Shown here piece by piece: positions 25,626-26,523 of a DNA stretch of 64,000 bases. Both the position numbers and the translations under genes were made by a program. Source of the stretch: Pseudooceanicola nitratireducens (GTDB lineage Bacteria > Pseudomonadota > Alphaproteobacteria > Rhodobacterales > Rhodobacteraceae); assembly GCF_900109195.1 (NCBI RefSeq), contig NZ_FNZG01000001.1:744001-808000 (forward strand), given 5' to 3'. Positions within the stretch are counted from its first letter, which is position 1, and each line of letters opens with the position of its first letter. The notes under the pieces were generated by a model. That model was not told the DNA's origin and did no database searches. It was given only the letters and a program-made list of their open reading frames with translations.

Positions 25626-25704
25626 TGCGCGCGCACCACGGGCGTGCCCTGCGCAACCGCGCCAGGCCCGCCAAATCCACGCGCCGACCAAACCCAAGCT
25701 TTGG

Positions 25705-25749
25705 AAAGAAAAAACCGCGACGCCAGGGAGGAGGAGAGGCGCCGCGGTT
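25705..25749 (-). ncRNA. Cuckoo/CcsR-type hairpin 6 with terminator
   Basis: A 12-bp stem (25713-25724 with 25738-25749, one G.U only on the minus strand) presents CTCCTCCTCCC in the loop; on the minus strand it runs straight into TTTTTTCTTT, so this last hairpin also terminates the transcript. Confidence 0.85.
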
Positions 25750-25757
25750 CATTTCAC

Positions 25758-25786
25758 GATCACCCAGGGAGGAGGAGAGGGCGACC
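25758..25786 (-). ncRNA. Cuckoo/CcsR-type hairpin 5
   Basis: An 8-bp stem (25758-25765 with 25779-25786) with two G.U pairs that exist only in minus-strand RNA; loop carries CCTCCTCCC. Confidence 0.8.
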
Positions 25787-25802
25787 GATCTGGTTGTGAA
25801 GT

Positions 25803-25837
25803 CCGGCGACCCCAGGGAGGAGGAGAGGGGCCGCCGG
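25803..25837 (-). ncRNA. Cuckoo/CcsR-type hairpin 4
   Basis: An 11-bp stem (25803-25813 with 25827-25837), one G.U on the minus strand; loop carries CCTCCTCCC. Confidence 0.82.
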
Positions 25838-25846
25838 TCTTGCTAT

Positions 25847-25877
25847 CACCAACCCAGGGAGGAGGAGAGGGCTGGTG
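25847..25877 (-). ncRNA. Cuckoo/CcsR-type hairpin 3
   Basis: A 9-bp stem (25847-25855 with 25869-25877), one G.U on the minus strand; loop carries CCTCCTCCC. Between hairpins 3 and 2 a 6-bp stem at 25887-25908 lacks the motif. Confidence 0.82.
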
Positions 25878-25919
25878 CATTCTGTGCGGAGCGTCTTACC
25901 CGGCTCCGGGGATAGGCGC

Positions 25920-25950
25920 GGTGACATCAGGGAGGAGGAGAGATGTCACC
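25920..25950 (-). ncRNA. Cuckoo/CcsR-type hairpin 2
   Basis: A perfect 9-bp stem (GGTGACATC with GATGTCACC) encloses the CCTCCTCCC loop. Confidence 0.85.
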
Positions 25951-25961
25951 GCTTAGTTTCA

Positions 25962-25990
25962 GTCGACCCAGGGAGGAGGAGAGGGCCGCC
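25962..25990 (-). ncRNA. Cuckoo/CcsR-type hairpin 1
   Basis: Stem 25962-25969 with 25983-25990 (one mismatch, one G.U on the minus strand), loop with CCTCCTCCC, beginning 9 bp after the DUF1127 stop codon. This is the first hairpin transcribed if RNA continues from the DUF1127 gene. Confidence 0.8.
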
Positions 25991-25999
25991 TGATCCAAA

Positions 26000-26215
26000 T
26001 TACATCGTGCGGTACGCTTCTTCGCGTGCCAGCGACTTGATCATCGAACGGTGCAGACCCAGGTCGCGCAGTTCGCGGTCGTTCAGGGCCGAAAGCTCAT
26101 TGACGCACTTGCGATAGGCTTTGTTCTGTGCGTAGCGTTCGGTCAGACCGGCCACAATACGCTGGAAGATGCCACCGTGGGCGACTGCGTTGCGGGTTTC
26201 GGTCATCATAGTCAT
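26000..26215 (-). CDS. Small DUF1127 protein, CcaF1-like
   Basis: A 71-residue basic protein. Residues 35-65 (YRKCVNELSALNDRELRDLGLHRSMI) are the DUF1127 core with the LxxLxDRELxDLGLxR pattern. In Rhodobacter sphaeroides a 71-residue DUF1127 protein (CcaF1) is encoded just before a string of CCUCCUCCC-motif small RNAs (CcsR1-4), shares their transcript and acts as an RNA-binding helper; the same layout is seen here. The family is induced by oxidative and heat stress through RpoHI/RpoHII. An ATG three codons later (26206) is an alternative start. Confidence 0.9.
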   Translation of the reverse strand: MTMMTETRNAVAHGGIFQRIVAGLTERYAQNKAYRKCVNELSALNDRELRDLGLHRSMIKSLAREEAYRTM

Positions 26216-26523
26216 GTCTTCGTACCTTTTCGTCTTGCCTTGGGGCCGTATGCCCGTTCAGCGCTGTGTTGAGATGAAATTAGGATTTATGCTGCGCATG
26301 CACAACGCCCGATGCTGCAACGCGGCTATGCAAAATGTGCATAGTCAACTACGATGTGCAGGGCATTGAAAAATAATGAAATAATTCAGTTTCGCCCAAA
26401 AGTTCCTCAAAAGATTTGTTTTCGGGGCATGATTGACGTTACGTCCGCAAGCCCCTTTCCTTGGGTGGTCATCGCGCAGGCGACCCCTTATCTAGGGGCA
26501 GTAAGCAGGAAAACAGGTGGAAC
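26216..26523. other. 308-bp region between divergent DUF1127 and mrp genes
   Basis: It holds the promoters of both genes. It is AT-richer than its neighbours and contains a 7-5-7 inverted repeat (26326-26344). No RNA gene or convincing small frame was found. Confidence 0.6.
26326..26344. promoter_or_regulatory. 7-5-7 perfect inverted repeat upstream of the DUF1127 gene
   Basis: CTATGCA, five bases, TGCATAG, about 110 bp before the DUF1127 start. No T-run follows, so an operator is more likely than a terminator. The cognate regulator is unknown. Confidence 0.45.

Follow-up and report, generated by a model that had tools for sequence, protein, structure and literature searches.

A CcsR-type cuckoo RNA array behind a DUF1127 gene in Pseudooceanicola nitratireducens and a conserved LsrB-like box in front of it

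The window analyzed here, a stretch of 64,000 nucleotides from Pseudooceanicola nitratireducens, contains a CcsR-type cuckoo RNA array situated behind a DUF1127 gene, and this locus is a small and unremarkable representative of a known kind. We are highly confident that it constitutes a DUF1127-CcsR operon with its RNAs. The new part, situated beyond the coordinates first annotated, is a conserved box before such arrays, which by its sequence appears equal to the LsrB site of the Sinorhizobium RNA NfeR1, and we see an even chance that the operon is activated by an LsrB-type LysR regulator at this box. The features of the locus, from upstream to downstream on the minus strand, are:

26318..26341, minus strand: conserved promoter box TGCACATTTTGCATAGCCGCGTTG of the LsrB/VtlR type, with the core TGCA-N6-GCAT at 26328-26341 and 0 mismatches to TGCA-N6-GCATAGCnGCnTTG
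26300..26305, minus strand: putative -35 element TTGTGC, suggested by the ATTGTGCA block that is conserved across an alignment of 23 upstream regions
26277..26282, minus strand: putative -10 element TAATTT after a 17-nt spacer, suggested by alignment and sequence; the transcript would start near 26270
26000..26215, minus strand: DUF1127 small protein, 71 aa, CcaF1-like (PF06568, 45.3 bits, cut-off 23.3)
25913..25996, minus strand: CcsR-like unit 1, hairpins 1 and 2, motifs at 25971-25979 and 25930-25938 (Rfam CcsR1, 45.6 bits, E 9.3e-10)
25887..25908, minus strand: motif-free spacer hairpin between units 1 and 2, 6-bp stem CGGAGC/GCTCCG
25798..25882, minus strand: CcsR-like unit 2, hairpins 3 and 4, motifs at 25857-25865 and 25815-25823 (Rfam CcsR1, 44.9 bits, E 1.5e-9)
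25709..25790, minus strand: CcsR-like unit 3, hairpins 5 and 6, motifs at 25767-25775 and 25726-25734 (Rfam CcsR1, 42.9 bits, E 5.8e-9)
25709..25750, minus strand: last hairpin, with a CCUCCUCCC loop, a 13-bp stem and then six T (U-tract), probably also an intrinsic terminator

A first-pass annotation of this DNA had described six exact motifs in hairpin loops, and all six copies of CCTCCTCCC are indeed found on the minus strand at 25726, 25767, 25815, 25857, 25930 and 25971, a number reached in none of 100 shuffles of the window (shuffle mean 0.92). Across the genome the motif occurs at 32 places as against 22 for the reversed control; hence it shows no excess outside clusters, and its clustering rather than its number is what is special. 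Each of the six motifs lies within an identical 13-nt loop, UCUCCUCCUCCCU, on stems that differ in sequence. The inverted repeats stand, but the 8-12 bp given for them proves slightly too narrow a range, the predicted stems being 6 (plus 4 beyond a mismatch), 11, 9, 11, 9 and 13 bp long, with motif-to-motif spacings of 41, 73, 42, 48 and 41 nt. Folding is strongly strand-biased: the minus-strand RNA of 25700-25999 has a z of -7.55, with none of 200 shuffles as good, whereas the plus-strand RNA has a z of -0.90, with 37 of 200 shuffles as good. This points to an RNA made from the minus strand, as had been proposed, and five of the six stems contain a G.U pair on that strand, again as described. 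The claim that the stems covary is likewise upheld, since nine stem pairs, scored in 679 distinct hairpin segments of 119 loci, form Watson-Crick pairs at 0.50-0.73 versus 0.28-0.64 with arms shuffled between hairpins. Over the same segments and pairs, the summed G.U and A.C values are 0.87 versus 0.36.

The assignment to the CcsR/cuckoo type is borne out by the CCUCCUCCC loops and by three matches to the Rfam CcsR1 model (RF02791), obtained, as was one to ar14 (RF02344), with lax thresholds. A covariance search of the region, proposed as a check, thus recovers the matches and not the gathering scores: all three units (42.9-45.6 bits, E 9e-10 to 6e-9) miss the CcsR1 gathering score of 65.3 bits, which is also unreached among the other CcsR1 matches listed. 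The ar14 match at 25710-25843 scores 56.1 bits, below the gathering score of 58.8 that is reached at places in arrays L015, L133, L136 and L156, and at gathering threshold Rfam returns only one tRNA from the whole window. The locus displays the hallmark of the cuckoo family, a conserved CCUCCUCCC loop on stems without sequence conservation, as well as that of the CIN1 locus, in which a short DUF1127 gene immediately precedes the RNAs on their own strand. The Pfam match, well above its cut-off, settles the identity of this gene as it had been named, and its product has the length reported for CcaF1 of Rhodobacter sphaeroides (71 aa). The role of DUF1127 proteins is described as disputed, with RNA binding reported for CcaF1 and protein contacts for others.

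The first motif is located just 20 nt behind the DUF1127 stop codon and the last hairpin has a U-tract end, both of which would suit an array acting only in cis, as a structured 3' UTR that stabilizes the DUF1127 mRNA and has no targets. We regard such a role as very improbable, in that the loop sequence is kept while the stems change, and that cuckoo loci with the box directly in front of them occur where no DUF1127 frame was found (L032, 88 nt; L074, 119 nt; L089, 126 nt). The T tract noticed at the end of the last hairpin is present as six T at 25714-25709, immediately following it, and a U-rich end is also seen in the genus arrays inspected. A simple scan returned no terminator, but as it allows loops of 3-8 nt only, the 13-nt loops are invisible to it and its null result is no evidence against one.

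The same annotation had regarded the locus as expanded, setting six hairpins against the four RNAs CcsR1-4 found behind ccaF1 in R. sphaeroides. However, a single CcsR1 model covers two hairpins, and it has three matches in the window. We take RS0680a to be CcsR1. A 2011 paper on Rhizobiales describes RS0680a with two stem loops, each bearing the motif; together with the model this gives three units here, to be set against CcsR1-4. Cuckoo RNAs are reported to have 2-4 hairpins per RNA (PMC4504443), and the six hairpins in a row seen here would give units of two hairpins each under CcsR-like cleavage. A hairpin without the motif does lie at 25887-25908 as described, and such hairpins are the usual spacer between two-hairpin units. 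Motif spacings across loci fall into two main peaks, ~37-51 and 61-85 nt. The gap holding this hairpin is only weakly stable against mononucleotide shuffles (z -0.5), and 197 distinct long gaps of 60-90 nt, compared in the same manner, have a mean z of -2.1, with 83% below -1, the stability in relatives often coming from a short GC-rich hairpin. The idea that the hairpin is peculiar to this window was accordingly rejected, as such hairpins recur in the long gaps of relatives. In L034 and L142 the spacers resemble decayed motif hairpins.

Copy number in relatives also contradicts an expansion. Exact motifs in 17 genomes of the genus number 5, 6, 6, 6, 6, 9, 10, 10, 10, 10, 12, 12, 12, 12, 12, 14 and 16, i.e. 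a range of 5-16 against 6 in the window; this count covers 17 of the 21 relatives, those with a DUF1127-linked array in the fetched locus, and leaves out G003, G014, G015 and G019, where the locus lay at a contig end or another place had been fetched. Runs of near-identical units do occur in other genomes, which would favor selection for more copies in this organism; with three units the window stands near the genus minimum, and its five spacings match those of L021, L023, L029 and L033 within 2 nt. Hence the notion of expansion was rejected on the counts in relatives and on the CcsR1 model being a two-hairpin unit, and we consider it hardly credible. At least one motif pair is present in 21 of 21 genus relatives, and none was found to keep the DUF1127 gene and lose the motif. 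The closest DUF1127 protein among named genomes, at 81% identity, comes from a genome labelled Primorskyibacter flagellatus.

A scan of named genomes, in which 80 of 109 DUF1127 loci were kept, gave the following numbers of exact motifs close behind the gene (motifs:loci): 0:5, 1:6, 2:2, 3:7, 4:19, 5:4, 6:7, 7:2, 8:3, 9:4, 10:5, 11:2, 12:7, 13:1, 14:4, 16:1 and 23:1. These counts end at gaps of more than 160 nt and are too low for some loci, L139, L151 and L160 holding 12, 10 and 11 motifs in all. At least one motif lies behind the DUF1127 gene in 75 of the 80 loci, an antisense motif in none. The five loci that lack a motif close behind the gene include none labelled Pseudooceanicola, and in one of them, L176, three motifs lie at other positions of the locus. 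An even motif number is seen in 46 of the 60 arrays with at least four motifs, relatives in this table not being independent of one another. At the family level a two-motif pattern was detected in 151 of 394 genomes, with 0 for the reversed control (this pattern only, variants aside); in 26 of the 30 family loci fetched, the first motif follows the end of a DUF1127 frame by 20-63 nt, and the motif counts of these 30 run from 2 to 26.

The loops were said to resemble the anti-Shine-Dalgarno sequence, a reading that we judge right, and all six being identical, they might jointly titrate ribosome binding sites as a global decoy, with the number of loops as the functional quantity. The breadth of copy number in the 17 genus genomes, and the 8, 10 and 14 motifs of three genomes labelled Salipiger bermudensis, would agree with this. 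Nevertheless, such a decoy appears unlikely, because NfeR1, with three loops, is reported to silence particular mRNAs with redundant motifs, and because 37 of the 80 named loci have as few as 3-6 motifs.

Several unusual loci were encountered along the way. The 26-motif array L077 (G202) has spacings that often repeat 42, 47 and 49-51 nt, corresponding to a unit of three hairpins rather than two, and L156, a Loktanella atrilutea record, has 23 motifs behind its DUF1127 gene. Besides its main array, the Pseudooceanicola relative G014 has five scattered two-motif places that resemble one another (C4, C7, C12:30061, C42, C46), copies that may be mobile. The organism's own genome holds a further cuckoo hairpin pair at G000:C13:9057-9105 (L012), on a 34-kb contig with no DUF1127 frame found nearby, and G002 and G009 contain the same or a near-identical orphan pair. 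The record L159, which bears the title Nocardioides marinus, contains a DUF1127 locus and four cuckoo motifs typical of Rhodobacterales, and the genome is probably mislabelled or contaminated.

Alignment of 23 upstream regions, from the genus and from other genera, revealed a common order of TGCA-N6-GCATAGCnGCnTTG, then ATTGTGCA, then a -10-like element; a simple scan for sigma-70 promoters returned none, and the -35- and -10-like elements, though conserved, point to no particular sigma factor. The box pattern was derived from this alignment, so that its loci provide no independent test of the pattern. We sought the best match 60-480 nt upstream in 116 of 133 loci, those with at least three motifs and 480 nt upstream, which dropped 17 loci, the 26-motif L077 among them, and retained some species twice. 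All 116 arrays have a match, with 0 (48 arrays), 1 (49), 2 (17) or 3 (2) mismatches in 16 positions, compared with 4-8 when the same stretches are read backwards. With at most two substitutions, the box lies within 600 nt upstream of 127 of the 137 loci with any motif, duplicates included, and the core TGCA-N6-GCAT is found upstream in 115 of 137 versus 3 of 137 downstream control stretches. Seven loci have neither box nor core: four two-motif places, one contig end, L077 and L188. In L012 the only core hit, 160 nt upstream, is probably due to chance; nearer the pair there are an ATTGTGC block and a near copy of the box whose spacing is 5 nt. Searching 22 genus genomes with at most one mismatch located the pattern at 35 places, spread over 21 genomes, as against 2 for the reversed control. 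Among 30 of these places that were fetched, cuckoo motifs follow in 21, a SorX-like RNA in 4 and something else in 5.

Presumably, atu1667 of Agrobacterium and its orthologs encode DUF1127 proteins. These genes, described as coding for small hypothetical proteins in Agrobacterium and Brucella, are reported to be activated by the LsrB/VtlR regulator, the box of which is given there as GCAT-N3-TG-N3-T. This form fits a part of the genus sequences, and the window box with one change (CG for TG). In Sinorhizobium meliloti the LsrB site TGCA-N6-GCAT is placed at -72 to -57 of NfeR1; the exact TGCA-N6-GCAT core of the window would be located at about -71 to -58 of the transcript start proposed above.

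A candidate for the regulator is encoded in the same genome at G000:C19:1108633-1109550 (-). The best solved relative of this LysR-type protein is 9HH1 (246 bits versus 107 for the next), reported as Agrobacterium LsrB, and in the reverse search LsrB retrieves from this genome the same protein at 41% identity and 245.8 bits, the next reaching 127.7; by sequence comparison it is thus the reciprocal best match of LsrB. With a threshold of E 1e-70, a single copy is found in 38 of 41 genomes of the family; among those that are complete, the figure is 36 of 36. A third genomic copy of the box, with one mismatch, lies 9 nt behind its reading frame and precedes an RNA matching SorX at 50.8 bits, above the gathering score of 46.6. 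This arrangement recurs in the family: a box with up to three mismatches lies within 600 nt behind the LsrB-like gene in 20 of 30 loci versus 1 of 212 background stretches; 15 of the loci have the exact core, and 22 of the 30 have a SorX-like tail. All ten of the 20 box-bearing loci that were run against Rfam match SorX or SorY (E <=0.01), SorX at gathering score in 6 of 10 and SorY in 0 of 10.

Certain observations disfavor orthology with LsrB: no LysR gene was seen by eye beside trxB (G000:C16:669365) among ORFs of at least 150 aa in 7.5 kb around it, the LsrB cysteines are absent at the aligned places, identity is only 41%, and the publication on 9HH1 describes LsrB as restricted to Rhizobiales. 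None of the best 25 of 55 NCBIfam families gave the protein a name above cut-offs. However, VtlR is called conserved in Alphaproteobacteria both by an abstract and by the title of a cited reference, so that an LsrB-type regulator outside Rhizobiales may not be news; our literature search found no paper treating both LsrB and CcsR.

The box might instead be the site of another regulator, or part of an RpoHI/RpoHII promoter, with the LsrB-like gene unrelated to it, and we take this as a real possibility, though short of an even one. RpoHI/RpoHII control is reported in R. sphaeroides for CcsR, SorX and SorY, and the RpoHI/RpoHII promoter of ccaF1-CcsR there counts against the LsrB-type reading of the operon; in addition, 10 of the 30 LsrB-like loci have no box within three mismatches behind the gene. 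Against this, the box, 24 nt long, precedes the -35-like element, matches the LsrB box in both sequence and distance, and adjoins the LsrB-like gene in a further copy here and in 20 of 30 family loci. Whether the LsrB-type regulator, as a conserved single copy in Rhodobacterales, drives a wider regulon of DUF1127-CcsR arrays, free-standing cuckoo RNAs and the SorX/SorY-like RNA is in our estimate evenly balanced.

Comparison with known systems, based on published work on cuckoo RNAs, CcsR and LsrB/VtlR (PMC10253847, PMC8625941, PMC3927594, PMC10746234, PMC4504443, PMC8307010, PMC11975290, PMC12501420, PMC7486931, PMC7866481), brings out both parallels and differences. The ccaF1/CcsR1-4 locus of R. 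sphaeroides, compared via its Rfam model and descriptions, likewise consists of a 71-aa DUF1127 gene, two-hairpin CCUCCUCCC RNAs and a terminator; it has four units, whereas three are present here, matching at 43-46 bits against the gathering score of 65.3, and the R. sphaeroides descriptions at hand do not mention the box. NfeR1/ar14 (RF02344) of S. meliloti shares the CCUCCUCCC motif and an LsrB-type box, whose distance from the transcript start is similar to that from the putative start here, yet it is described as a trans-acting, Hfq-independent RNA of three hairpins with its own promoter, and not as the tail of a DUF1127 transcript. The LsrB/VtlR regulon of Rhizobiales (AbcR1, VrsA, atu1667) resembles the present case in its LysR regulator, its box and its sRNA and small-protein targets, and differs from it in the points on trxB, cysteines and identity raised above. 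Finally, the counterpart of SorX/SorY (RF02784, RF02651) found here lies behind the LsrB-like gene and its box, whereas SorX of R. sphaeroides is reported to be released from the ompR-1 3' UTR by RNase E; the SorY gathering score of 111 was reached nowhere among the loci run against Rfam.

These parallels suggest a mechanism, which we infer for Pseudooceanicola nitratireducens in all its steps, regulator binding included. Transcription would most likely be activated by an LsrB-type LysR regulator at the conserved box, giving one stress-induced transcript that would start near 26270, encode the DUF1127 protein, carry three two-hairpin RNAs in its 3' part and end at the last hairpin, doubling as terminator. 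An RNase E-type nuclease would cut between units, and the loop UCUCCUCCUCCCU would pair with Shine-Dalgarno regions and so lower the translation of chosen mRNAs, while copy number would shift mainly by gain or loss of two-hairpin units. Co-transcription, RNase E cutting and silencing by loop pairing are proposed by analogy with the R. sphaeroides and Sinorhizobium papers, in which CcsR RNAs are made from the ccaF1 transcript by RNase E and NfeR1 silences via its anti-Shine-Dalgarno loops.

A search of the genome for candidate targets of the form GGGAGGAGG-N3-10-ATG found 8 sites (control 0), two of them inside cuckoo loci. Five of the other six precede an ORF of at least 35 codons, named by eye as an MFS-type transporter, an isovaleryl-CoA-dehydrogenase-like acyl-CoA dehydrogenase, a FAD-dependent oxygenase-like protein and two short doubtful ones. 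The start of the acyl-CoA dehydrogenase gene (G000:C19:856625) has a 9-nt perfect complement to the loop. The gene was found in 19 of 22 genus genomes, and at the 16 of 19 starts that were read (L311-L326, own included) the complement measures 6-11 nt, with at least 8 nt in 13 of 16, compared with at most 6 nt at LysR gene starts (28 read of 30 loci). Its mRNA is possibly a target, or the start is just a strong ribosome site; it is a lead only, as a strong Shine-Dalgarno sequence alone gives the same picture and the gene was picked for its match.

Thus, the locus adds a further instance of a stress-RNA operon that is already known, and the wrong impression of its expansion is corrected. With up to 26 motifs per locus, the family is useful for asking what purpose repeated, redundant target-pairing loops serve. 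If the proposed regulation is true, LsrB-type control of cuckoo RNAs would be older than the split of Rhizobiales and Rhodobacterales, and the copy number of the two-hairpin unit would be a freely varying output of an LsrB-type regulon. The box and the regulator would then link the cuckoo RNAs of both orders and offer a testable answer to the question of who switches them on.
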